Shown: positions 326 through 15,436 of the stretch, piece after piece
How the letters are laid out: every line of letters starts with the position of its first letter
Position numbering within the stretch: the first letter of the stretch is position 1
From: an uncultured Eubacteriales bacterium
GTDB lineage: Bacteria; Bacillota; Clostridia; Peptostreptococcales; Anaerovoracaceae
NCBI GenBank assembly: GCA_902795135.1
Contig: CADBJW010000013.1
Span: forward strand, 1 to 61,866
DNA: 61,866 bases
Direction of reading: 5' to 3'
Made by a program: the position numbers and the translations under genes
The notes under the pieces: generated by a model
The model's database searches: none
What the model was told of the DNA's origin: nothing
The model's input: only the letters and a program-made list of their open reading frames with translations

Positions 326-1201
326 ATGAAAATCATCAATTCAAAAAAATATTATTCCATTGGTGAAATATCCGATATCACGAAGATATCCATCACAACC
401 CTTCGATTTTACGATCGGGAGGGGATACTTGTTCCTGCCTTGCGCAATGAAAACAGCGGTTATCGATATTACGCGGAATCGCAGATGGATATTCTGCATG
501 ACATCAAGTATTTGCAAGCCTTTGGATTTTCTTTAGAAGAAATCAAAGCGTTCCTGCAGGATCCGACCTCAACCTGGATGGAGACCCGGGTTTCCGAAAA
601 CATAAAGAGGGTAAAAGGTGAGATCGAAACCCTCGAGTATAGGCTGAATTCGATGGAGTTTCTCTTAAACCGGATCCAGCAGAGCAGAACCATTCGAAGT
701 GATGATAGTCAGAATACAGAGTCTTTTAGTGTGGAAGTAACTACACTAAAGAAATCATGGGTGATTTCCATTCGCCATGTCAGCAAGCTCGACGCGGACC
801 GATTGTTCTCCGATCGTTGTTTGGAACTGCAGGCTTTGTTGAGCAGGGATAATCTGTTCCCGGCTGGTCCATACATTGGCGTTTTTCATGGCGGATACGA
901 GAAACAGTTCACGAAAGAGGAAGCTGACCTGGAGCTTTGTATTCCAATCATCCTGCCAAAAGGCTACCAGTCAAAAAATCTGAGACAATTCGGCGGCGAA
1001 ACAGTCGTAGGCAGCATGCATTATGGCCATTACAGGGACATAAAGAAAACCTATGACGCTCTTTTACAATGGATTGACCGACATGAATATGAGATCGTTG
1101 GACCGGCTTACGAATATTACTTCTGTGATTTGGGGACGACATTTGACGAAAGCGAATATTTAACCAAAATTTATTTTCCGGTACAGGAAAAACGTAGATA
1201 A
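326..1201 (+). CDS. MerR family transcriptional regulator with GyrI-like effector domain
   Basis: A 291-residue regulator. Residues about 9-75 form a MerR winged helix-turn-helix (YYSIGEISDITKISITTLRFYDREG, then the RNENSGYRYY wing, here split to show its two parts). A short coiled linker follows, and the C-terminal ~150 residues look like a GyrI-like/AraC effector-binding fold that usually binds a small molecule. The ATG at 326 is chosen because GAGGTAGG lies just upstream; the frame stays open further 5' through the tRNA, which cannot be coding. It is followed by a terminator and then, in the same direction, by the GcvP-like operon. That operon's promoter has the long 20-bp spacer typical of MerR-activated promoters, so this protein is probably its activator (inference). 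The ligand is unknown. Confidence 0.85.
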   Translation: MKIINSKKYYSIGEISDITKISITTLRFYDREGILVPALRNENSGYRYYAESQMDILHDIKYLQAFGFSLEEIKAFLQDPTSTWMETRVSENIKRVKGEIETLEYRLNSMEFLLNRIQQSRTIRSDDSQNTESFSVEVTTLKKSWVISIRHVSKLDADRLFSDRCLELQALLSRDNLFPAGPYIGVFHGGYEKQFTKEEADLELCIPIILPKGYQSKNLRQFGGETVVGSMHYGHYRDIKKTYDALLQWIDRHEYEIVGPAYEYYFCDLGTTFDESEYLTKIYFPVQEKRR

Positions 1202-1260: not shown

Positions 1261-1297
1261 CAAACTCCCTGATATTCATTTATCAGGGAGTTTTCTT
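1261..1297 (+). terminator. Intrinsic terminator after the MerR gene
   Basis: A perfect 12-bp stem AACTCCCTGATA/TATCAGGGAGTT with a 6-base loop is followed by TTCTTGT. A weaker AACTCT/AGAGTT hairpin with a T run lies just upstream at about 1209-1237. Confidence 0.85.
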
Positions 1298-1366: not shown

Positions 1367-1398
1367 TTGACTGTGAAGCATAGGGAAGATTCTACAAT
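1367..1398 (+). promoter_or_regulatory. Promoter of the GcvP-like operon with 20-bp spacer
   Basis: TTGACT (1367-1372) and TACAAT (1393-1398) are separated by 20 bases. This is too long for efficient unassisted sigma-A recognition and typical of promoters that MerR proteins untwist. The expected transcript starts near 1405, giving a leader of about 54 bases before the ATG at 1459. Confidence 0.6.
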
Positions 1399-1458
1399 AT
1401 TAAATAGAAGAAAAGTATACATCACGACAATAAATGACTTCGAGTAAGGAGGGTGAAG

Positions 1459-2868
1459 ATGGATCAATCAAAGAAGATTGTATACCCATACATCCCAAAC
1501 TCCGCTCCGCAGGTTCAAAAGGAAATGATGGACGCAGTCGGGGTAAAGGATCTGTGGGACCTGTATGAAGAAGTGCCGGAAGAACTGAAATTCAGAGAGG
1601 ACCTGGATATTCCACCTGCAATTCTGGATGAGTACAGCATGAAACGGCACATCGACGGTGTGCTCGGCAAGAACACATCGACAGCCGATTACATCAGTTT
1701 CCTGGGTGGAGGCTGTGCATGCCATTATGTCCCGGCGGTAGTTGATGAAATCAGCACACGAGGAGAATTTCTCACTTGTTATGGTGCAGAGAGCTGGGCC
1801 GACCATGGCAAATACCAGACTTACGTAGAATACAACAGTATGCTGGCGGAGCTTTTGGAAACAGAAGCCATGAGTGTTCCGCAGTATGATGGCGGACAGG
1901 CCTTGGCCACATCGATCTGTATGGCGAACCGTATCAACGGGAAAACGAAGACCCTGCTGCCGGCATCCATGAATCCGCAGAACAAACGCATTCTGATCAA
2001 CTATCTGGACAGTGTTCAGGCGGATCTCGCTATCAGCTATGACTTCGTTGCGTATGACAAGGAGACCGGACTGATCGATCTGGATGATTTCAGAAGCAAA
2101 CTGGACGATAACGTTTCATCCGTGGTTATTGAACCGGTTGGTTATCTGGGTGTCATAGAAGAAAACGCGAGAGAAATCGGAGAACTTGCAAAGGCTGCGG
2201 GAGCAGAATTTATCACTTATGTGGATCCGATCACACTGGGCCTTATGGAGGCACCGACGAAGTACGGCGCGGACATTGTCTGCGGCGACCTGCACAGCTT
2301 AGGACTGCATCAGTCCTGCGGCAACGGCCAGGCAGGGTTCATTTCCACAATGGCGGATGCGAAATATCTGAGTGAGTACAAAGACTTTATTTATGGCTTT
2401 TGCGAACCGGAAGTCGAAGGCGAATACGTATTCGGAAATCTTCTCATCAGCCGAACCCACTACGCACAAAGAGCCAAGGGCAAGGAATATTCCGGAACAG
2501 GCGTAAACCTCTGGATGGTTTCGGCGGCCGTGTATATGGCGCTGATGGGACCAAAAGGATTTGAAGAAATTGATGAAACGATATTATACAACGGCGCATA
2601 CGCTTTGCAAAAGCTCAGCGAAATCAAAGGCGTCAAACCGGTTTTCAGCGGAAAATCCTTCGGAGAATTCGCAATTGATTTTAATGAAACCGGAAAAAGC
2701 GTAGCAGAAATCAACAAATATCTCTTAACAAAAGGCATCTTCGGCGGACTCGACCTGAGTAAGGATTTCTCGGAACTGGGTGCAAGCGCACTGTTCTGCT
2801 TCACGGAAACAACCGGGAAGTGCGAAATCGATGCTTTGGTAGAAGCACTGAAAGAGCTGTTGCAGTAG
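1459..2868 (+). CDS. gcvPA: Glycine dehydrogenase (decarboxylating) subunit 1-like protein, divergent
   Basis: A 469-residue member of the GcvP N-terminal (GcvPA) family, the alpha partner of a PLP-dependent glycine decarboxylase. Recognisable blocks are YIPNSAPQVQKEMMDAVGV at the N-terminus, FLGGGCACHYVPAVV near residue 90, and QYDGGQALA near residue 140, where canonical proteins carry a YDGATALAE-type block. The TPYQPE.SQG-type segment of canonical subunits is replaced by an unrelated stretch, so this is a divergent subfamily. ATG 1459 is chosen over the upstream in-frame GTG at 1453 because AAGGAGG ends six bases before it. It lies 15 bases from the partner subunit gene. No gcvT, gcvH or lpd is present in the window, so action on glycine with lipoyl-H protein is not assured. 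Confidence 0.75.
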   Translation: MDQSKKIVYPYIPNSAPQVQKEMMDAVGVKDLWDLYEEVPEELKFREDLDIPPAILDEYSMKRHIDGVLGKNTSTADYISFLGGGCACHYVPAVVDEISTRGEFLTCYGAESWADHGKYQTYVEYNSMLAELLETEAMSVPQYDGGQALATSICMANRINGKTKTLLPASMNPQNKRILINYLDSVQADLAISYDFVAYDKETGLIDLDDFRSKLDDNVSSVVIEPVGYLGVIEENAREIGELAKAAGAEFITYVDPITLGLMEAPTKYGADIVCGDLHSLGLHQSCGNGQAGFISTMADAKYLSEYKDFIYGFCEPEVEGEYVFGNLLISRTHYAQRAKGKEYSGTGVNLWMVSAAVYMALMGPKGFEEIDETILYNGAYALQKLSEIKGVKPVFSGKSFGEFAIDFNETGKSVAEINKYLLTKGIFGGLDLSKDFSELGASALFCFTETTGKCEIDALVEALKELLQ

Positions 2869-2883
2869 GAAGGAGGAACGATC

Positions 2884-4452
2884 ATGGCAAGAAACAGAGA
2901 AACATTGCTTCGGGAATTTCATGAAGCCAAATGGGACGAACCCATCATCTACGAAATGTCAACACCCGGTGAACGCGGCATCCTTCCACCAAAGGCAGAT
3001 CCATCCATCATCGATGAGTTTGGCGACGCCAAAGATCTGATTCCACAGAGCATGCGAAGAGAAACATCACCGAATCTTCCGGAAGTCGGACAGATGCGAG
3101 TAAACCGTCACTATATGAGACTTTCTCAGGAAACCATGGGAGACGACGTGGCCGTAGACATCGGCGAAGGAACCTGCACGATGAAATACAGCCCGAAAAT
3201 CCAGGAACATACGGTGGCGTACAACGCGAAAATTACTGAAATCCATCCAATGCAGGATCCAAGCACCATGCAGGGAATATTGGAAGTGTATTACGAAGTC
3301 GAACGCTACATGAAATCGATTTCGGGAATGGATCACTTCTGCTTCCAGCCTGGCGGAGGCGCTCATGCGGTCTTTACCAATGCTTCGATCATCCGCAAGT
3401 ATTTCAGAGATCGCGGTGAAGATCGAGACGAAATCGTGACCACCATTTTCTCACATCCGTGTGATGCGGGAAGCCCTGCAACCGTTGGGTTCAAAGTCGT
3501 GGATCTGATGAACGATCCTGTTCAGGGATATCCGACACTAGAGGCCTTCAAGGCAGCCCTGTCCGAAAAGACAGCCGCGATATTCGTTACTAATCCAGAA
3601 GATACCGGATTGTTTAATCCGAAAATCAAAGAATACGTAGACGCCGCCCATGCCGTAGGCGCGCTGGCAGTATATGACCAGGCAAACGTCAATGGAATCA
3701 TGGGCATTACGAGAGCACGTGAATGCGGATTCGACCTGATTCATTACAATCTGCATAAAACGTTCTCATCACCGCACGGCGGTATGGGACCAGGCTGCGG
3801 TGCGGTTGGTGCCAGAGACTTCCTCAAAGATTACCTGCCGGTTCCGCGGATCACGAAAGACGAAAATGGAACCTTCGATCTTGACTGGAACGGCGAGGGC
3901 GCCACGATCGGTCAGGTACGATCCTATTTCGGCAATGCGCAGGTCGTACTGCGGGCCTACATGTGGCTCAGATCTCTCGGGTCTGATGGCGTGCGCGAGG
4001 CTGCCATGTGTGCCGTTTTGAATAATCAGTATATGGTAAAACAAATCGAACAGATCAAAGGCGTCACCATGTACTACGGAGAAGGAAAGCGGAGGATCGA
4101 ACAGTGCCGGTACAGCTGGGAACAGCTTGAGAAAGATACCGGACTTGGAACCGAAGACGTTTTGCGCAGGATGGTCGATTATGGTTGCGAACACTATTGG
4201 GAAAGCCATCATCCGCACATCGTTCCGGAACCATTCACGTTGGAGCCGACGGACAGCTTCTCCAAGGAAGACATCGACGAGTTCGTGGCAGTAATGCGTA
4301 AAATCGCACAGGAATGTTACGAAACGCCTGAAGTCGTTCGGACGGCACCGCATAACGCGCCATGTCATGGCATCAAAAATTACTACGAAGAAGATCCCGA
4401 AAAAGTTATTTGCACCTGGAAGAAATACAAGGAAGTATACGGCATAGAGTAA
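2884..4452 (+). CDS. gcvPB: Glycine dehydrogenase (decarboxylating) subunit 2-like protein, PLP-binding
   Basis: A 522-residue GcvPB-type subunit of a fold-type I PLP enzyme. The PLP-lysine block NLHKTFSSPHGGMGPG is clear, with Lys about residue 292. The cofactor-supporting YDQANVNGIMG stretch lies near residue 264, and QPGGGAHAV near 156 corresponds to the canonical QPNSGAQGE-type phosphate loop. Start ATG 2884 has AGGAGG seven bases upstream. The pair with the preceding gene should form the heterotetrameric decarboxylase (family knowledge). The length is close to normal for split GcvPB. Substrate is uncertain: loop residues differ from textbook GcvPB and no H- or T-protein gene is nearby. 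Confidence 0.8.
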   Translation: MARNRETLLREFHEAKWDEPIIYEMSTPGERGILPPKADPSIIDEFGDAKDLIPQSMRRETSPNLPEVGQMRVNRHYMRLSQETMGDDVAVDIGEGTCTMKYSPKIQEHTVAYNAKITEIHPMQDPSTMQGILEVYYEVERYMKSISGMDHFCFQPGGGAHAVFTNASIIRKYFRDRGEDRDEIVTTIFSHPCDAGSPATVGFKVVDLMNDPVQGYPTLEAFKAALSEKTAAIFVTNPEDTGLFNPKIKEYVDAAHAVGALAVYDQANVNGIMGITRARECGFDLIHYNLHKTFSSPHGGMGPGCGAVGARDFLKDYLPVPRITKDENGTFDLDWNGEGATIGQVRSYFGNAQVVLRAYMWLRSLGSDGVREAAMCAVLNNQYMVKQIEQIKGVTMYYGEGKRRIEQCRYSWEQLEKDTGLGTEDVLRRMVDYGCEHYWESHHPHIVPEPFTLEPTDSFSKEDIDEFVAVMRKIAQECYETPEVVRTAPHNAPCHGIKNYYEEDPEKVICTWKKYKEVYGIE

Positions 4453-4457
4453 TCGAG

Positions 4458-5573
4458 ATGAAAAAAATCGGGTTAATCGTAAACCCCATTGCAGGAATCG
4501 GCGGTCCCGTGGGACTCAAAGGCAGTGATGGGGAGGACATACAAAAGCTTGCACTTTCAAAAGGCGCTGTCAAGGAATCCGGCAAAAGAGCGGAAGCGGC
4601 TTTTGCACTGGTAGGGACGTGTAAAGACGACATCCTGCTTTACTGCGGGCCCGGTGAAATGGGCGAGACGATCGCGAAAAACCTGGAACTGGAGCATCAG
4701 GTCGTGCCGGCCATTCATTCAAACACCACGGCAGCAGATACCGAGTTTGTCGCAGCGCAGATGAAAGACCTCGGCGTCGATCTGATCGCTTTTGCAGGAG
4801 GAGACGGCACGGCTAGAAATGTATTGAACGCCGTCGGAGATGAGGTTCCGGTTATTGGGATTCCTGCAGGAGTCAAGATCCATTCCGGAGTTTTTGCAAC
4901 CAGCCCGGCCGCAGCCGGAAGGCTGATTGAGGCTTTTGTGAAAACAAAAGCTGTAAAGTTCCAACCTGCGGAAGTCATCGATCTTAACGAAGAGGACTAC
5001 CGGCAGGGAAGAATCGGCGATACGTTTTACGGGTATATGAGCGTTCCGGTCATTGGGAGCGGAATGCAGAATCCAAAAGCCGCGTCTCACAACAGTGAGA
5101 ATGATGTTGGCGGAATCTGCCAGGAAATCCGTGAAAAAATGCAGAGAGAGGACCCGGATACGGTGTACATTCTGTGCGCCGGGAGCACCGTGTACAGCTT
5201 GAAACAGGACCTGGGCATTGACGGGACACTTTTAGGAATCGATGTCATTCAGGGAAACAAGCTGATTGGCAGGGATGTTTCCGCCGATGAGCTTCGAGAA
5301 ATTATTCATACTAATCAATGCCGACTGATTTTGACTGCAATTGGAGGACAAGGGCACATTTTTGGTCGGGGGAATCAACAACTTGCACCGGATATCATTC
5401 GGCATATCGGCACAGATCATATATGGATCATAGCAACCGCGTCAAAGATTTACGGGCTGCCGCAACAGACACTGTTTGTTGATACGGGCGACGCGTCTTT
5501 GGATGAAGAGCTTCGCGGATACAGACGCGTCATTGTTGGGTGGCAGGAAACTCTGATTTGTCGTGTGATGTGA
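4458..5573 (+). CDS. ATP-NAD kinase family protein (AcoX/COG3199-like)
   Basis: A 371-residue protein starting MKKIGLIVNPIAGIGGPVGLKG, typical of the AcoX-like branch of NAD kinases. The kinase signature AFAGGDGTARNV is near residue 110 (GGDGT motif), followed by PAGVKIHSGVFA, which binds nucleotide in this family. The predicted role is phosphorylation of NAD(H) or a related compound. AcoX-like proteins are known next to acetoin dehydrogenase and glycine-cleavage genes, with unclear function. ATG 4458 lies five bases after the gcvPB-like stop, suggesting translational coupling; there is no strong ribosome site. The location inside the operon argues for a role tied to the pathway's redox cofactor. 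Confidence 0.8.
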   Translation: MKKIGLIVNPIAGIGGPVGLKGSDGEDIQKLALSKGAVKESGKRAEAAFALVGTCKDDILLYCGPGEMGETIAKNLELEHQVVPAIHSNTTAADTEFVAAQMKDLGVDLIAFAGGDGTARNVLNAVGDEVPVIGIPAGVKIHSGVFATSPAAAGRLIEAFVKTKAVKFQPAEVIDLNEEDYRQGRIGDTFYGYMSVPVIGSGMQNPKAASHNSENDVGGICQEIREKMQREDPDTVYILCAGSTVYSLKQDLGIDGTLLGIDVIQGNKLIGRDVSADELREIIHTNQCRLILTAIGGQGHIFGRGNQQLAPDIIRHIGTDHIWIIATASKIYGLPQQTLFVDTGDASLDEELRGYRRVIVGWQETLICRVM

Positions 5574-5591
5574 GAAAGAAAGGAGAAAAAG

Positions 5592-6965
5592 ATGGTCGAT
5601 AAAATTAAGGCCAACAGGAGAAAAATCGGTCTGTTTTCATGTATCCTGTTCGGATTGGGCGTCATGTTCCCAATTGCACCGGCAGGCGTGTGGGGAGCGA
5701 TCATGCCTCTGTCTCAGGGCCACATGGGACTATGTTATTTGCTGGCAGTTATACCAATGACGTTTACTGCATGGAGTTTTGGCTGCATGGGTGCAGCCTT
5801 TCCGAGAGCCGGCTCCTCCTATACATTTGTAGGGAGCGGCATTCATCCATACGCGGGATTTATTACAGGATGGGGAATCCTGCTGGATTACATTCTCTTC
5901 CCGTTAATGAACTATATTATGCTGGCTATTTACACACAGCAGCTGTTCCCAAGCTGGAATTACAACGTCATCATTGTCGTTTCGATCCTGTTTGTATGTG
6001 GAATCAACCTGCTTGGCGTCAAGAGTATCGCCAGTGTTAACAACATCATTACACTGTTTGGATTCGTTGCAATGCTGTGGTTCATTTTCTCAGCCTTTGG
6101 AGCAGCCGGAAGCGGCGTAGGAATGGGAATCACCAGTAAGGGACTTGTGAATCCGGAAACCTTTGACTTCGGACTGATCCTGGCGGGAACATCCATCGCA
6201 TGCTTCTCCTTCCTGGGATTTGATACGATTACAACACTGGCAGAGGATGTCAAGATTCCGGAAAAGAATCTGCCTCGTTCCACGATTCTTTCCTGCCTGA
6301 TCATGGCAGCGATATTCGTATCCTCCTCCTTCATCGGACAGTGCGTATATCCGGATTACAACTCCTATGCGGATCCGGATTCCGCTTTCGTAGATGTTGC
6401 ATTCGCAGCAGGTGGAAATTCACTGGTTACCTTCGTAAGTATCGCACTGGTTGCCTGCACCTTCGCATTCTCCCTGGATATGATCGCAGGCGCAACACGT
6501 GTTCTGTATGGTATGGGACGTGACGGCGTTCTGCCAAAGAAGATCTTTGGTTACGCAAACGCAAAGGGCGTTCCGGTTTGGAATGTACTTCTGGTAACAG
6601 CCGTTTGCCTGATTTTCTCCAATATGTCACTGGGAGATCTGATTCCGATCATCAACTTCGGCGGCCTGTTTGCATTCATTCTGGTCAACCTGAGTGTAAT
6701 CGTTTACTTCTTCTACAAGAAGGGCAGACGTTCGGGAATCGGCAACATTTTGAAGTATCTGCTCATGCCGGCATGTGGTTTCGTTATCGTCACATTGCTG
6801 TGGTTCAACCTGAGCGGACTTGCCAAGGTCGTTGGATTCTGCTGGCTGGCACTGGGAGTCATTTATCTGGCCGTTTGGAGCAAAGGCTTCAAGAAGCCGA
6901 TCATTGGATTCACTTCCGAGTCTGCAGAAGAAATCGAAACAGAAGATGCAGAAGCAGCTGAATAG
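5592..6965 (+). CDS. APC-superfamily amino acid permease
   Basis: A 457-residue integral membrane protein with about 12 hydrophobic segments. The N-terminal block GVMFPIAPAGVWG and the later SFLGFDTITTLAEDVKIPEKNLPR match the amino acid/polyamine/organocation family, whose members import amino acids or amines by cation symport. A charged cytoplasmic tail rich in Glu ends the protein. ATG 5592 follows AAAGGAGA. It is the only transporter in the operon and probably imports the substrate acted on by the downstream amidase or the PLP subunits (inference). Confidence 0.85.
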   Translation: MVDKIKANRRKIGLFSCILFGLGVMFPIAPAGVWGAIMPLSQGHMGLCYLLAVIPMTFTAWSFGCMGAAFPRAGSSYTFVGSGIHPYAGFITGWGILLDYILFPLMNYIMLAIYTQQLFPSWNYNVIIVVSILFVCGINLLGVKSIASVNNIITLFGFVAMLWFIFSAFGAAGSGVGMGITSKGLVNPETFDFGLILAGTSIACFSFLGFDTITTLAEDVKIPEKNLPRSTILSCLIMAAIFVSSSFIGQCVYPDYNSYADPDSAFVDVAFAAGGNSLVTFVSIALVACTFAFSLDMIAGATRVLYGMGRDGVLPKKIFGYANAKGVPVWNVLLVTAVCLIFSNMSLGDLIPIINFGGLFAFILVNLSVIVYFFYKKGRRSGIGNILKYLLMPACGFVIVTLLWFNLSGLAKVVGFCWLALGVIYLAVWSKGFKKPIIGFTSESAEEIETEDAEAAE

Positions 6966-6984
6966 ACAAGAAGGGAGAATAGGA

Positions 6985-8181
6985 ATGAAAGAGACGGATT
7001 GTGCAACAAAGGCACCAGAGAGAAAACCAATCGCTCCATACATGGCCATTGGAATCTCCTCAGTAGCCTATGGCATTAGTAAGCGGGCAGACATTCAACG
7101 CAATCTGGACAACCTGGAAAGCCTTATTCGCGGTGCCATAACCACCGTTGACATCAACATGCCGGTCAAAATCGTAGCTCTCGCAGAGGGCTCGCTGACA
7201 GGGTTTACGGATGAAGTCTTTGATCTGCCGCACAAGTTTTGCGCGGACGAACTGTTCATTGATATTCCGGGACCGGAAACAGAACGACTGGGCGAACTGG
7301 CCAAGGAGTATCAGACGCACATTATCGTGCAGTGCAAAGCGCGTTGGCCGGAGGTTATTGCGGACCGTTACTTTAACACATTGTTCATCATCGGACCGGA
7401 TGGGACGGTCGTGCATAAGGCGGCCAAGAATCATCTGTGGTGCAGAGAGCGTTCCTGCACGCCACATGATGTTTATGACCGCTGGGTAGAACTGTTTGGA
7501 GATGGCATCGATGCTTTTTATCCGGTTTACAAATCCCCGGAGATCGGCAATATCGGAACGATCTGCTGCAGTGACGGTGAATATCCGGAAGTCGTTCGAG
7601 CACTTGCCTTCAATGGAGCGGAAGTCGTTTACCGGCCGAGCGAGGCAATGCCGATGACGGGAAGCAGTTATCCGGGCGGCGGTGGCTGGATGATCCAGAA
7701 CCAGGGTCATGCGCAGTTCAATTCACTGTATATGATCTGTCCGAATGTGGGTCCGGTATACGTTACGCCGCAAATGGAGCACCCATTTGACGTCGGTGGC
7801 GGCAATTCACATATCTGTGACTATTTGGGAAATGTCATTTCCTATAACGCGTCAGGGACCAACAGCATTGTCGCTGCGACGATCGATATCGAACAGCTGC
7901 GGCAGTTCCGTACGATGAATCTGAACTCCAACTGGACGAAGGACCTTCGCACCGAACTCTTCAAGCACATGTACGATGAACCGATCCATCCAAAGAATCT
8001 CTGGTTAAACGAGGAACCAAAGCACCATTCTGAAGTGGATGAAATCTATCGTCAGAACATACAGAGACTGATCGATCGGGGCACTTATACTGAACCGTAC
8101 CTGAAATTCGAAGGCTGCCGCAATAAAGAAAAACCGACAACCATCGAAGAATGGAGAGAAATCGCGAAACTTTGGGATTAG
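6985..8181 (+). CDS. Carbon-nitrogen hydrolase (nitrilase superfamily amidase)
   Basis: A 398-residue member of the nitrilase superfamily. The catalytic triad can be located: Glu68 in VALAEGSL, Lys in HKAAKNHLW (145 or 148), and Cys195 in TICCSDGEYPE, which aligns with the CHDGMFPE-type block of aliphatic amidases and formamidase. It probably hydrolyses a small amide, releasing ammonia. ATG 6985 has AAGGGAG upstream; the longer open frame would overlap the permease gene. It is the last gene of the operon and is followed by a strong terminator. The substrate is not predictable from sequence alone. Confidence 0.82.
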   Translation: MKETDCATKAPERKPIAPYMAIGISSVAYGISKRADIQRNLDNLESLIRGAITTVDINMPVKIVALAEGSLTGFTDEVFDLPHKFCADELFIDIPGPETERLGELAKEYQTHIIVQCKARWPEVIADRYFNTLFIIGPDGTVVHKAAKNHLWCRERSCTPHDVYDRWVELFGDGIDAFYPVYKSPEIGNIGTICCSDGEYPEVVRALAFNGAEVVYRPSEAMPMTGSSYPGGGGWMIQNQGHAQFNSLYMICPNVGPVYVTPQMEHPFDVGGGNSHICDYLGNVISYNASGTNSIVAATIDIEQLRQFRTMNLNSNWTKDLRTELFKHMYDEPIHPKNLWLNEEPKHHSEVDEIYRQNIQRLIDRGTYTEPYLKFEGCRNKEKPTTIEEWREIAKLWD

Positions 8182-8221
8182 CCAAGCAATAGAAAAAATT
8201 GGATCCCCCCAATTTGCAACG

Positions 8222-8275
8222 CCGCCGGAATTCCGCATGCAGCATCGTGTGTGAATTCCGGTGGTTTGTTTTTTG
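8222..8275 (+). terminator. Intrinsic terminator of the GcvP-like/amidase operon
   Basis: A 12-bp stem CCGCCGGAATTC/GAATTCCGGTGG with one G-T wobble and an 18-base loop is followed by TTTGTTTTTT. It defines the 3' end of the five-gene operon. Confidence 0.85.
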
Positions 8276-8311
8276 ATCCTCCGTTTCAGGCTTCTTTTTT
8301 CCGGTTTGAAA

Positions 8312-8320
8312 TGTTACAAT
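8312..8320 (+). promoter_or_regulatory. Probable extended -10 promoter of the ACT/UPF0210 pair
   Basis: TGTTACAAT is an extended -10 element lying 41 bases before the ACT gene, just downstream of the preceding terminator. No good -35 is visible. Confidence 0.4.
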
Positions 8321-8360
8321 ACGAGTATCTTTTAAGCAATCGAATCGAAGGAGAACTACC

Positions 8361-8630
8361 ATGAAAGCAATCATTACCGTCCTGGGCAAGGACACCGTTG
8401 GCATTATGTATAAAGTTTCAAAGATCCTAACCGAATTGGAAGTCAACATTGAAGATGTGACCCAGACGATTCTGCAGGATTATTTTACGATGCTGATGCT
8501 TGTAAAAATCGACGAGTCGAAGTCTAACATCAGCGAACTCAAGGCGGCGCTCAACGAAATGGCCGCTGAGGAGAACTTATCGATCAACGTCCAAAAGGAA
8601 GATATATTTGTTGCGATGCATAGGGTATAA
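8361..8630 (+). CDS. ACT domain-containing protein (UPF0237 family)
   Basis: An 89-residue stand-alone ACT domain starting MKAIITVLGKDTVGIMYKVS, the form seen in UPF0237 and related to the regulatory half of GcvR. ACT domains bind amino acids and regulate partner proteins; no target is proved for this family. AAGGAGA sits seven bases before ATG 8361. The UPF0210 gene begins 11 bases downstream. The two families are commonly adjacent in Firmicutes, so they probably act together. Confidence 0.88.
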   Translation: MKAIITVLGKDTVGIMYKVSKILTELEVNIEDVTQTILQDYFTMLMLVKIDESKSNISELKAALNEMAAEENLSINVQKEDIFVAMHRV

Positions 8631-8641
8631 GAGGTGAGACA

Positions 8642-10029
8642 ATGGCAATATACAATGACGTAATGGAAACGATTGAAATGCTCGAAAGGGAGCATCTGGA
8701 CATCCGGACCACGACCATGGGCATTTCACTTCTTGACTGTTTTGAAGAAGACGGCAAAAAGACAGCGCAGCTGATTTATGATAAAGTCACCAAACTGGCG
8801 AAGAATCTCGTTTCGACGGCCGATGCGGTCGGCAACGAATACGGTATCGAAATCGTAAATAAGCGAATCTCCGTCACACCGATCGCCCTGGCTTGTGCTT
8901 CCAACACAGAGGACTGGGTTCTTTATGCAAAAGCTTTGGATCGCGCTGCGAAGGAAGTCGGCGTGGATTTGATAGGCGGATTCTCCGCCCTGGTTCAAAA
9001 GGGCATGACGAAAACCGATGAGAGCTTCATCGAGGCAGTTCCCTATGCGCTGACAGAAACGGAGAGAATGTGTTCCAGCATCAATTTAGGGTCTTCCAAG
9101 GCAGGTATCAATCTGGAAGCTGTGAAGCGAATGGGCCCACTCGTCAAGAAAACGGCCTACCTTTCCAGAGAAGACAAGTCCTTTCGGCCTACCTTTCCAG
9201 AGAAGACAAGTCCTTTGGCTGCGCCAAATTCGTGGCTTTTGCAAATGCTGTGGAGGACAATCCGTTTATGGCGGGAGCATTTCACGGAATCGGTGAATCG
9301 GAGAACATCATCAACGTAGGCGTCAGCGGACCGGGCGTCGTCAAGACGGCCCTGGAAGAGATGAAGGACGCTACGGCCGATGAACTGGCAGAAAAAATCA
9401 AAGTCACAGCCTTTAAGATCACCAGAGCCGGACAGATCGTCGGCAAGGAAGTAAGCAAGCGGCTCGGCGTACCTTTTGGCATTTTGGATCTTTCTCTGGC
9501 TCCGACTCCGGCAGTGGGAGACAGCGTTGCAGAGATTCTGGAAGTTATGGGTCTGGAACGGTGCGGGACGCACGGGAGCACAGCGGCTCTGGCCATGCTC
9601 ACCGACGCCGTCAAGAAGGGAGGCATCATGGCATCCAGCAGTGTAGGCGGCCTTTCGGGAGCATTTATTCCGGTCAGTGAAGACAACCGGATGATCGCTT
9701 CTGTGGAAGACGGCTGTCTGACCTTCGATAAACTGGAAGCTATGACCAGCGTATGCTCCGTAGGTCTGGACATGATCGCGATCCCAGGAGATACGCCGGA
9801 CGACACGATTTCCGCCATGATTGCAGACGAAGCCGCAATTGGCGTCATCAATAACAAAACGACCGCCGTCCGAGTCGTACCGGTATACGGAATGAAGGCT
9901 GGCGACAAGGTTGACTGGGGCGGTCTGTTTGGTGCGGCACCGATCATGGAAGTCAATGCCTTCAGTAGCAGCGATTTCATTCAGCGGGGCGGACTGATTC
10001 CTGCGCCGGTGCATTCATTCAGAAACTAA
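8642..10029 (+). pseudogene. PFL family protein (UPF0210/DUF711), frameshifted by a 32-bp tandem duplication
   Basis: Reading from ATG 8642 gives the UPF0210 N-terminus (EREHLDIRTTTMGISLLDC) to about residue 180. There an exact 32-bp tandem repeat shifts the frame and translation stops at 9319 after an unrelated tail. The remainder continues in the other frame to 10029 ([20 protein letters not shown], then the C-terminal half). Removing one repeat copy restores a single 451-residue protein, the usual family length. The biochemical function is unknown; the name reflects a distant pyruvate formate-lyase-like classification. The gene is either inactivated, reversibly switched by slippage, or affected by a sequencing or assembly error. 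The upstream ACT gene is intact. Confidence 0.85.
9153..9216 (+). repeat. Exact 32-bp tandem duplication inside UPF0210 gene
   Basis: The 32-base unit beginning CGGCCTACC and ending GTCCTTT occurs twice in direct succession (9153-9184 and 9185-9216) without a mismatch. Because 32 is not a multiple of three it causes a +2 frameshift. The encoded peptide is [10 protein letters not shown] in both copies but in different frames relative to the start. Confidence 0.97.
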
Positions 10030-13167: not shown

Positions 13168-14013
13168 ATGTTAGAAGCTTTACTGGAAGCGGTGACAGAC
13201 AGTTTGAAACTGATACCGTTTCTGTTTGTTACATACTTATTGATGGGCATCCTGGAGCGGGCGGCAAGCGACCGTTCCAGGGATTTGATTGCAAAAGCCG
13301 GGAAAGTTGGTCCGCTTTGGGGAAGTCTGATTGGCGTCATTCCCCAATGCGGCCTTTCTGTTGCGGCCTCGTATTTTTATGTGGGAAAGGTCATTACGCT
13401 TGGCACTTTGATTGCAATTTATATGTCCACGTCGGATGAAATGCTTCCTATTTTTCTGGCGGAGCATGTAGCCCCGGCGACGATCGCTAAAATCATGGCC
13501 GCGAAAGTTGCCATAGGCATCGTATCCGGGTTTACCATAGAGTTGCTGTTTGGATGGATCGCCAAACGCAGGCACATTCCGGACAGTTACACAGGGGAAA
13601 TCGGCACAGGATGCAATTGCGCTGCAGACCTGTTGATCGATTCCATCCGAAGGACATTGAAGGTATTCCTTCTGATTTTGCTCATATCGGTTGTAATCGA
13701 GCTTTCTGTCCACAGTATCGGTATCGGCAGAATATCGGAACTGTTCCTCGGGATGCCGATTCTCGGAGAATTGGTCGCGGGACTGATTGGACTGATACCG
13801 AATTGCGCGGCATCAGTCGTGATCAGTGAGCTCTATTTGGAAGGCGCCATTGGAGTAGGACCCATGATGAGCGGCCTGCTTGTCAGCGCTGGCGTCGGAC
13901 TATTGGTACTCTGCAAGGAGAACCATCATTGGAAACAAAATGTTATGGTTATTGGAATTCTGTACGGGACATCCGTCCTTTGGGGAATTCTGATCGAGAC
14001 GTTTATCGTTTAA
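13168..14013 (+). CDS. Putative heavy-metal/arsenic-efflux-type permease (ArsP_2-like)
   Basis: A 281-residue polytopic membrane protein with about eight to ten hydrophobic segments. Two internally related motifs, GVIPQCGLSVAAS (about residue 55) and GLIPNCAASVVIS (about 210), place it in the two-repeat permease group annotated as ArsP_2 or putative manganese transporter. Between the halves lies a cytosolic GTGCNCAADLL segment with two cysteines that could bind a soft metal. ATG 13168 lies seven bases after the preceding stop without a strong ribosome site, so coupling is likely. Two COG0523 metallochaperone-type GTPases follow on the opposite strand. The ion carried cannot be told from sequence. 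Confidence 0.72.
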   Translation: MLEALLEAVTDSLKLIPFLFVTYLLMGILERAASDRSRDLIAKAGKVGPLWGSLIGVIPQCGLSVAASYFYVGKVITLGTLIAIYMSTSDEMLPIFLAEHVAPATIAKIMAAKVAIGIVSGFTIELLFGWIAKRRHIPDSYTGEIGTGCNCAADLLIDSIRRTLKVFLLILLISVVIELSVHSIGIGRISELFLGMPILGELVAGLIGLIPNCAASVVISELYLEGAIGVGPMMSGLLVSAGVGLLVLCKENHHWKQNVMVIGILYGTSVLWGILIETFIV

Positions 14014-14053
14014 AATATTGATATATGAGGTTATTGAAAAGGAGGAAATAAAA

Positions 14054-14482
14054 ATGGCACAAGACATCAAAAAAATGACAGAGACATTTGAAAATCTAAA
14101 TCCGGAAGCAAAAGCATCGATGGGGAAGCTTAGAGAACTGATCGACAAGTGCGCGATGGATCCTGAAAAAGTTCAGGACATGATCGATAACAGTCCGCTG
14201 GCTGATAAGATTCATCCGGATCTTAAAAATGTTGAAGGTATGACGAGCAAGGATTTTGCCGCAATTTATAAAAAGATGGCGGAAGAAATCAAAGCAAATC
14301 CCGACGAATTTGAACCGCACACCAGAGCAGCAGGAATGTCAGCAGGAGATTTGGAAATCCTCTTTACGGAGATTCACGGTGTTGTTGACCAGCACCCGGA
14401 AGTTTGGGAAAGTCAGGAAGCTGCACAGATGCTGAGTCCGAAAAATCTTTCGATTCTGGTACATGCCGTCAAAGGGAAATAA
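14054..14482 (+). CDS. Hypothetical small acidic helical protein
   Basis: I do not recognise this 142-residue protein. It has no signal peptide or membrane segment, is rich in Lys, Glu and Met, and looks almost wholly helical. The start is firm: AAAAGGAGG lies eight bases before ATG 14054, and the next upstream in-frame ATG at 14018 has none. It follows the permease gene by 40 bases and ends ten bases before the convergent COG0523 gene. Its place in a metal-related cluster is the only functional hint. Confidence 0.75.
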   Translation: MAQDIKKMTETFENLNPEAKASMGKLRELIDKCAMDPEKVQDMIDNSPLADKIHPDLKNVEGMTSKDFAAIYKKMAEEIKANPDEFEPHTRAAGMSAGDLEILFTEIHGVVDQHPEVWESQEAAQMLSPKNLSILVHAVKGK

Positions 14483-14512
14483 AAAAGGCCGCTAGAATGT
14501 AGCGACCTCTGG
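14478..14512 (-). terminator. Terminator for the COG0523 genes, overlapping the stop codon
   Basis: On the minus strand AGGTCGCTA pairs with TAGCGGCCT around a 5-base loop, followed by TTTTTTATT. The gene's TAG stop lies inside the right arm of the stem. Confidence 0.75.
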
Positions 14513-15436
14513 AGAACACGGATCAATTTTCGTAATCTGACTGCAATGCAGGACTGGACCGACTTCACCGTAAATAGGCGTAAATTCATTATGAATTTTC
14601 GCGCGGATCTCGATCCAGTCTCCGTTTTTTATTTTTGAGACTTTCTTTGGAGAACTCTTGCCGAGAAGACCGGCGAAGGTGATATCCGCCTCACAGCATG
14701 TCATGACGTGCCGGCCAAATACAAACTCATCGTCTGCCAGATCGTCGCCAATGGCAGCCCGGCCTTTGACGATGATTTCTTTGGATTCATAATCGTCCTG
14801 ATTCTCATTGATATCCCGGTACCATTCCGCAAAGTATTCTTCCTTGATGTCGAGAAGTTTGCGCGTCATATCGTAAGGCAGGGGATCCTGAATGTCATCC
14901 ACCATGACATCCTCCGGCCCGAATTCGTAAACGATCTGGCTTTTGCGGTTCGCAACGCGGCAGATCTTATGCACTTCCAGCTGCCAGTCGCGGAAAGCAT
15001 CATTTTTCGTGCAGCGGTTAAACACGACGAGTTCCGCACCCTTGAGCTGCTCAAAGGTCTGCTGCCGGATGTTATTGTTGTATATAAGAAAGGTTCCGGC
15101 ATCGGCAAACATGGACTGCTGGTAGATTGTCCACTCCGGCGGCATGTTCTCGTAGAGGGTGTTCAGATCCCACATCCCGTTCCATTCGATGACAGCCCGC
15201 GTCGCCTTGTGATGCAAAAGCGCTGCTTCCAGTCCCTGCTCGGTCAGAGCAGCTTCTTCTTCCAAACGCTCGATAAAAACATCTTCGCTGTTATAAAACC
15301 GAGAAGGATCGTATTCGACCTCTCCCTCTTCGCAGAGGAGCAGAAGCGTCCGCTCACCTTCATTGAATTGGATAAACGTTGTTTTCCCCGAATCCAGGAA
15401 TCCAGTAAATAGATATACCGGTACTTCTGTAATCAT
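14492..15436 (-). CDS. COG0523-related P-loop GTPase with TIGR03943-like C-terminal part
   Basis: A 314-residue protein. The N-terminus VPVYLFTGFLDSGKTTF is a G3E/COG0523-type Walker A, but the CxCC metal site of true COG0523 chaperones is absent. The C-terminal third contains FGRHVMTCCEADITFAGLLG, which resembles the MTCCAAD-type block of the YcgQ/TIGR03943 family. The protein may thus be a fusion of a chaperone-like NTPase and a domain normally paired with a permease subunit. It lies 25 bases downstream of a canonical COG0523 gene on the same strand and is probably co-transcribed. The role is presumably metal delivery or sensing; substrate unknown. Confidence 0.72.
   Translation of the reverse strand: MITEVPVYLFTGFLDSGKTTFIQFNEGERTLLLLCEEGEVEYDPSRFYNSEDVFIERLEEEAALTEQGLEAALLHHKATRAVIEWNGMWDLNTLYENMPPEWTIYQQSMFADAGTFLIYNNNIRQQTFEQLKGAELVVFNRCTKNDAFRDWQLEVHKICRVANRKSQIVYEFGPEDVMVDDIQDPLPYDMTRKLLDIKEEYFAEWYRDINENQDDYESKEIIVKGRAAIGDDLADDEFVFGRHVMTCCEADITFAGLLGKSSPKKVSKIKNGDWIEIRAKIHNEFTPIYGEVGPVLHCSQITKIDPCSPEVATF

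Follow-up and report, generated by a model that had tools for sequence, protein, structure and literature searches.

Decarboxylation is the established chemistry of the P-protein of glycine cleavage, an enzyme that depends on pyridoxal 5′-phosphate (PLP). The closest described relative of the system reported here is the split P-protein, in which the enzyme is divided into the subunits GcvPA and GcvPB (Thermus, 1WYT). In the excerpted text of one study of the human P-protein, Y161, Y164, T894 and W897 are named as active-site residues, and R373 is placed at the H-protein interface in a docking model rather than in a structure (PMC7259800). Here we analyse a five-gene operon of an uncultured Eubacteriales bacterium (contig CADBJW010000013.1 of assembly GCA_902795135.1) that begins with genes for a divergent GcvPA-like and GcvPB-like pair, hereafter PA′ and PB′, followed by a kinase, a permease and an amidase. 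The whole stretch that was analysed, positions 1 to 61,866, is referred to as the window. Like the split P-protein, the pair has an alpha-beta architecture, belongs to the same fold family and keeps the PLP lysine, Asp265 and His191, but it differs by forming a separate branch, by the loss of the second tyrosine of the TPYQPE motif, by a changed pocket and by its occurrence in genomes in which neither GcvT nor GcvH was found.

In our reading, PA′, PB′ and the kinase are the core of a catabolic module, and the branch of the P-protein family to which the pair belongs would do without the lipoyl H-protein. In the form that we favour, with a probability of roughly 0.38, the pair would be a PLP decarboxylase that needs no H-protein and acts on some amino acid other than glycine, working with the kinase and fed by the permease and the amidase. 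The broader proposal, which we regard as probable on balance, is that this branch represents a second widespread class of P-protein enzymes, in which an H-protein-free PLP decarboxylase or lyase and a dedicated small-molecule kinase of NAD-kinase fold would serve an undescribed amino acid catabolism. This pathway would span a haloarchaeon as well as several phyla of bacteria, and its modules for uptake and hydrolysis would be interchangeable. The features of the operon and of its regulator are as follows.

326..1201, + strand: MerR-family regulator with a GyrI-like ligand-binding domain (PF13411, PF06445)
1262..1293, + strand: hairpin terminating the MerR transcript
1367..1398, + strand: promoter TTGACT-20 bp-TACAAT with MerR-type spacing, kept in locus L007
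1459..2868, + strand: PA′, divergent GcvPA-like alpha subunit (PF02347, 144.8 bits; NF001696, 383.7 bits, cut-off 364)
2884..4452, + strand: PB′, divergent GcvPB-like PLP subunit with PLP lysine K292 (PF21478; NF003346, 510.8 bits, cut-off 441)
4458..5573, + strand: protein of the NAD-kinase/diacylglycerol-kinase superfamily, 'AcoX-like' (PF01513, 71.1 bits; PF20143, 55.6 bits)
5592..6965, + strand: APC-family amino acid permease (PF00324/PF13520)
6985..8181, + strand: nitrilase-superfamily amidase, CN_hydrolase (PF00795, 113.9 bits)
8220..8275, + strand: intrinsic terminator (−34.4 kcal/mol, z −6.1)

Both subunits belong to the P-protein fold family, with PF02347, PF21478, NF001696 and NF003346 all above their cut-offs and the PLP lysine in place; the window pair does not group with canonical GcvPA and GcvPB in the trees. 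A single branch with full support (100 in the Shimodaira-Hasegawa-like approximate likelihood ratio test, SH-aLRT) parts 74 divergent from 30 canonical rows in the PA tree, and another with the same value parts 81 from 30 in the PB tree. The PA split is unchanged when five added outgroups are left out (74 versus 25). These are unrooted trees made by a quick method, in which canonical means a set of sampled sequences, and the program warned of long branches, including that of a canonical Halobellus sequence lying beside divergent rows. Mean identity between divergent and canonical sequences is 32% for PA (39% at most) and 36% for PB (43% at most). In the host genome (2.08 Mb, estimated to be 91% complete), the window is contig C13. 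A complete canonical gcvT-gcvH-gcvPA-gcvPB-lpd operon lies on contig C9, and a second divergent gcvPA′-gcvPB′-kinase operon lies on contig C3, where the neighbouring genes encode a beta-lactamase-family serine hydrolase, an AraC-type regulator and a membrane protein that no Pfam model matches. The window PA′ shares 45% identity with the C3 copy and 30% with its canonical counterpart, the corresponding values for PB′ are 49% and 34%, and the two kinases are 46% identical.

Beyond this genome, 198 genomes of the order were searched with a PA′ profile of two rows. The scores are bimodal, with 38 matches of at least 521 bits in 34 genomes and the next match at 302 bits. In a 398-genome draw of the phylum, 27 genomes, including that of the window, match PA′ at E 1e-110 or better. 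A divergent pair is also present in Candidatus Abyssobacteria (L009), and relatives with 35-43% identity are carried by named plasmid records of Rhodococcus, Paracoccus, Gemmobacter, Roseicitreum, Antarctobacter and Sphingomonas, as well as of the archaeon Natronosalvus. In the trees, all of these fall on the divergent side of the fully supported branch. In the titles and displayed abstracts of the open-licence papers retrieved, no description was found of this divergent GcvPA/GcvPB family. Other unusual gcv-type genes were seen during this survey. In genome G231 (L086, about 4775-7120), an extra GcvPA-like gene and a shortened GcvPB-like gene (340 aa) lie directly upstream of a canonical gcvT-gcvH-gcvPA-gcvPB operon, the extra alpha subunit grouping with canonical sequences. 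Locus L097 contains a GcvT-like gene of 894 codons (5867-8551), a length far over the usual one that suggests a fusion.

The residues of the active site have changed unevenly. In PB′, the PLP lysine K292, D265 and H191 are kept in all 81 sequences. In PA′, the second tyrosine of TPYQPE, equivalent to human Y164 by alignment, is gone from all 74 divergent sequences and present in all 30 canonical ones. The absence of the TPYQPExSQG segment reported for the window's alpha subunit in the initial annotation is real and common to the whole branch. At the position of human W897, where canonical sequences have Phe or Trp, PB′ has His in 70, Glu in 9 and Tyr in 2 of the 81 sequences; the position before it, almost always Tyr in canonical sequences, is His in all of them, and Asp240 invariably stands in place of Thr. 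In addition, an R-x-EQ-x-R motif stands where canonical sequences have HEF, in a region (404-410) where the PB′ alignment is unstable and two alignments match the columns of the two motifs differently. The arginine equivalent to R373 is found in 29 of 30 canonical sequences and in none of the 74 divergent PA′. Judged from the alignments, the beta pocket is partly changed while the PLP site is kept, and the predicted contact with H-protein appears to be lost across the divergent branch.

The distribution of the glycine cleavage machinery points in the same direction. GcvT is present in 23 of the 34 PA′ carriers of the order and absent from 11, and canonical GcvPA was not found in any of these 11. 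One of them, G304, has GcvH; in the other 10, no GcvT, true GcvH or canonical GcvPA was found. Seven of the ten are at least 90% complete (G167, G169, G174, G179, G202, G216 and G240), one of which, G179, consists of a single contig. The remaining 23 carriers, the window genome among them, have both systems; the co-occurrence with GcvT and GcvH that would mark a GcvP thus holds in this genome and does not hold throughout the carriers. On the strength of the trees, the active-site changes and the carriers without GcvT and GcvH, ordinary glycine cleavage was rejected for PA′/PB′, in agreement with the initial annotation. It had also remarked on the lack of gcvT, gcvH and lpd in the window, and a tblastn search with the copies of the same genome indeed gave no significant match there (best E 0.09), although the full operon exists on contig C9. 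Of the findings that it had named as evidence for a canonical enzyme, the presence of gcvT and gcvH elsewhere in the genome was encountered, while the tree placement and the neighbourhood turned out the other way.

The genes around the pair were compared in 69 loci read through PA′ or the window genome (the window, L006, L007-L010, L045-L080 and L101-L127), excluding from the counts L029-L044, which were fetched through the kinase. Full context, defined as two or more genes upstream and three or more downstream, was available for 51 of them. The kinase lies within three genes of the pair in 52 of the 69 loci and in 43 of the 51 with full context. A short-chain dehydrogenase/reductase (SDR) is found at this distance in 32 of the 51, and its sequence cluster is absent from the 232 genes at a distance of over five positions from a P-like gene, counted over all loci with such a gene. 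A sigma-54 activator, PrdR-like and below the model cut-off, occurs within three genes in 23 of the 51. Other dehydrogenases occur as well: a threonine-dehydrogenase-like zinc enzyme adjoins the pair in L077, L124 and L126 have neighbours from the zinc-dehydrogenase family, and in L009 the pair is preceded by an iron alcohol dehydrogenase. In L104, L106 and L107, the module adjoins a canonical glycine cleavage operon.

The remaining neighbours vary. Transporters are of NhaC, APC, DUF819, peptide ABC, tricarboxylate or TRAP-like type, the DUF819 label of those in L006 and L010 being given by eye, with no Pfam match. Hydrolases belong to Amidohydro_3, M19, S12 or ArgE/DapE, and to the nitrilase type in the window. 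A copper amine oxidase is encoded near the pair in Gemmobacter. In L121, the gene for a dimethylamine methyltransferase (13198-14589) lies three genes downstream of the divergent pair; it contains one in-frame TAG, as expected for pyrrolysine, and is followed by genes for corrinoid and MttB-like proteins. A substrate could not be called from such neighbours, since the contexts seen (dimethylamine, amine oxidase, hydantoin, peptide) do not agree with one another.

The kinase contains the N- and C-terminal NAD_kinase domains, both above cut-off, and a GGDGT motif. These domains (PF01513 and PF20143) and the motif make it a candidate member of the AcoX/ATP-NAD kinase family. In the excerpted text of one report, acoX is described as a characteristic gene of acetoin dehydrogenase clusters whose function is not known (PMC3543383), but genes for an acetoin dehydrogenase were not recognised near the loci read. 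No AcoX-specific model matched, and the sole NCBIfam match, to a lipid-kinase model, fell far short of the cut-off. A sequence search of the PDB returned no relative of the kinase at E 0.01 or better, and the best match of a 49-row profile was a diacylglycerol kinase (E 0.033). A confident AlphaFold model was obtained, with a predicted local distance difference test (pLDDT) of 90.8; in a fold search restricted to its first ~205 residues, this predicted part resembles lipid, sphingosine and NAD kinases. The search does not single out a substrate, as lipid kinases and unrelated binding proteins score equally (Z 11.5 each, 2qvl and 6hni). The window genome has three further or paralogous PF01513 matches, one of them in a frame of 267 aa that may encode the housekeeping NAD kinase, so that the operon's kinase is unlikely to be the only one of the genome.

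Kinases that team up with PLP enzymes are familiar from threonine kinase and the threonine-phosphate decarboxylase CobD. In four loci (L041, L043, L044 and Peptoclostridium), the gene directly after a kinase relative encodes a HisC/CobD-like PLP enzyme; CobD belongs, however, to another PLP family than PB′, and the kinase-linked enzymes fall below the cut-offs of both the CobD and the HisC models. Such couples, recorded in L041, L043, L044 and L135, represent a second kind of kinase and PLP-enzyme pair. Identification of the enzyme as CobD was rejected for L041, L043 and L135, where the HisC model scores higher, itself below cut-off. On a Pseudoalteromonas replicon (L143, 7421-9113), a kinase relative that shares 54% identity with the one in L009 lies beside EpmC, the elongation factor P hydroxylase.

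Permease and amidase are less constant companions. A homologue 58.6% identical to the permease (L111_03) lies between PB′ and the kinase in L111. The amidase shares with nitrilase amidases such as formamidase and N-carbamoylputrescine amidase the CN_hydrolase domain and the conserved Glu, Lys and Cys; E68, K148 and C195, which we take to be the catalytic triad, are invariant in all four aligned homologues. Its best PDB match has E 3e-11, but at ~57 bits against NCBIfam cut-offs of 406-410 no subfamily was assigned. Good matches exist in 4 of the 398 genomes of the phylum, including that of the window, and no divergent GcvPA was detected in the other three, which gave only canonical-range matches of 250-259 bits. 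The orthologue of G429 (L149), 76% identical, lies beside an APC permease, and the homologues of G656 and G696 (45%) lie in a region with dihydropyrimidinase and Asp/Glu/hydantoin racemase-family proteins. The amidase was thus rejected as part of a conserved module. As its homologues occur in genomes without divergent GcvPA, permease and amidase look like an addition to the core. Accordingly, the conserved neighbourhood of kinase, permease and amidase predicted in the initial annotation stands for the kinase, extends to one other genome with pair and kinase (L111) for the permease, and fails for the amidase, which was linked to the pair in no other genome seen.

In the mechanism that we propose, PB′ with PA′ would bind a non-glycine amino acid as its external aldimine, perhaps a hydroxylated amino acid because SDR or alcohol dehydrogenase genes are frequent, and would decarboxylate it to the amine, the kinase phosphorylating a hydroxyl of the product or the substrate. 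In the window operon, MerR would sense the compound, the APC permease would import it as an amide or in carbamoylated form, and the amidase of nitrilase type would then free the amino acid. Decarboxylation is favoured because of the family chemistry and of two loci with amine-using enzymes (Gemmobacter and L121). Several points weigh against this proposal. The link to amines comes from two loci and is anecdotal; 8 of the 51 full-context loci lack the kinase (L067, L078, L079, L114, L116, L117, L118 and L122), and no SDR is present in the three-gene neighbourhood of 19, the window genome itself having no close SDR match (best 35% identity). The amidase is unlinked to the pair in every other genome seen. 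The uptake, hydrolysis and decarboxylation of an amino-acid amide read from the window in the initial annotation are putative, and so is the identity of the substrate. The dehydrogenases fit just as well a PLP-dependent C-C cleavage, in which a dehydrogenase makes a beta-keto amino acid that PA′/PB′ cleave to glycine or an aminoketone. The SDR genes, the zinc enzymes of L077, L124 and L126 and the iron alcohol dehydrogenase of L009 speak for this route, and the canonical operons adjoining the module in L104, L106 and L107 would fit glycine as product. We nevertheless consider it rather unlikely: the window operon has no dehydrogenase, and the chemistry established for the family is another one.

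It is also conceivable, if unlikely, that the kinase acts first and that PA′/PB′ take a phosphorylated hydroxy-amino acid, by analogy with threonine kinase and CobD. This order would agree with the same-cluster kinases found directly before HisC/CobD-like enzymes, and with the gain in PB′ of His442, mostly His443, and Arg409; set against these are the scores of the HisC/CobD-like proteins, under the cut-offs of both models, the parallel gain of Asp240 and Glu406, and the unstable alignment at 404-410. A highly improbable reading is that of a second glycine decarboxylase borrowing the H-, T- and L-proteins of the genome, to which the gcv operon on C9, the presence of GcvT in 23 of 34 carriers and the NCBIfam GcvPA and GcvPB scores would lend themselves; it is countered by the ten carriers without GcvT, true GcvH and canonical GcvPA, seven of them nearly complete, and by the branch-wide loss of the active-site tyrosine and of the predicted H-protein contact. 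The permease and the amidase could form a separately recruited uptake unit whose substrate may differ from that of the PLP pair, as the amidase-permease couple of G429, a genome with canonical-range GcvPA only, and the differing hydrolases of other loci would suggest. We hold this to be distinctly unlikely, given the single promoter, single terminator and short gaps of the window operon and the close permease homologue placed between PB′ and the kinase in L111.

The naming of these proteins has practical consequences. NCBI models and plasmid records call the divergent pair glycine dehydrogenase subunits (GcvPA/GcvPB), and automatic naming of this kind may lead metabolic reconstructions to credit organisms with a glycine cleavage that they lack. 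If a second P-protein class exists, many gcvPA/gcvPB annotations would be wrongly taken for glycine cleavage; action on another amino acid without H-protein would extend the known chemistry of the P-protein fold, and an orphan kinase family would gain a testable role. Since plasmid pRHL1 of Rhodococcus jostii RHA1, a strain in common laboratory use, carries the module, its substrate can be sought experimentally.

Regarding the expression of the window operon, its description in the initial annotation as five co-directional genes between a long-spacer promoter and a strong terminator agrees with the gene order and coordinates, all five genes running in the same direction with short gaps from 1459 to 8181. 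The TTGACT-20-TACAAT element is in place, and the terminator fold was equalled by none of 200 shuffled sequences; a pattern scan limited to shorter loops and to spacers of 16-18 bp missed both signals. The MerR-family protein is the likely activator of the operon. Its best NCBIfam match, the choline utilization activator NF053782, reaches 100 bits against a cut-off of 450 and gives no assignment. In L007, the 20-bp promoter spacing and much of the spacer are kept between diverged flanks, and a MerR orthologue (70% identical) lies upstream of the GcvPA-like gene, a single comparison that would support MerR control. An Rfam scan of the window found no glycine riboswitch or other element beside the operon, the only matches at gathering score being a 5S rRNA and two tRNAs. 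The contig starts inside the 5S rRNA gene, which is followed by a tRNA gene (1-172), and the window may thus begin at the end of an rRNA operon. Directly past the operon terminator lie genes for an ACT-domain protein and a DUF711-family protein (8361-10029). The latter is split by the frame shift of an exact 32-bp tandem duplication (9153-9216), its halves matching PF05167 positions 1-170 and 169-412, which may be a real variant or an assembly error.

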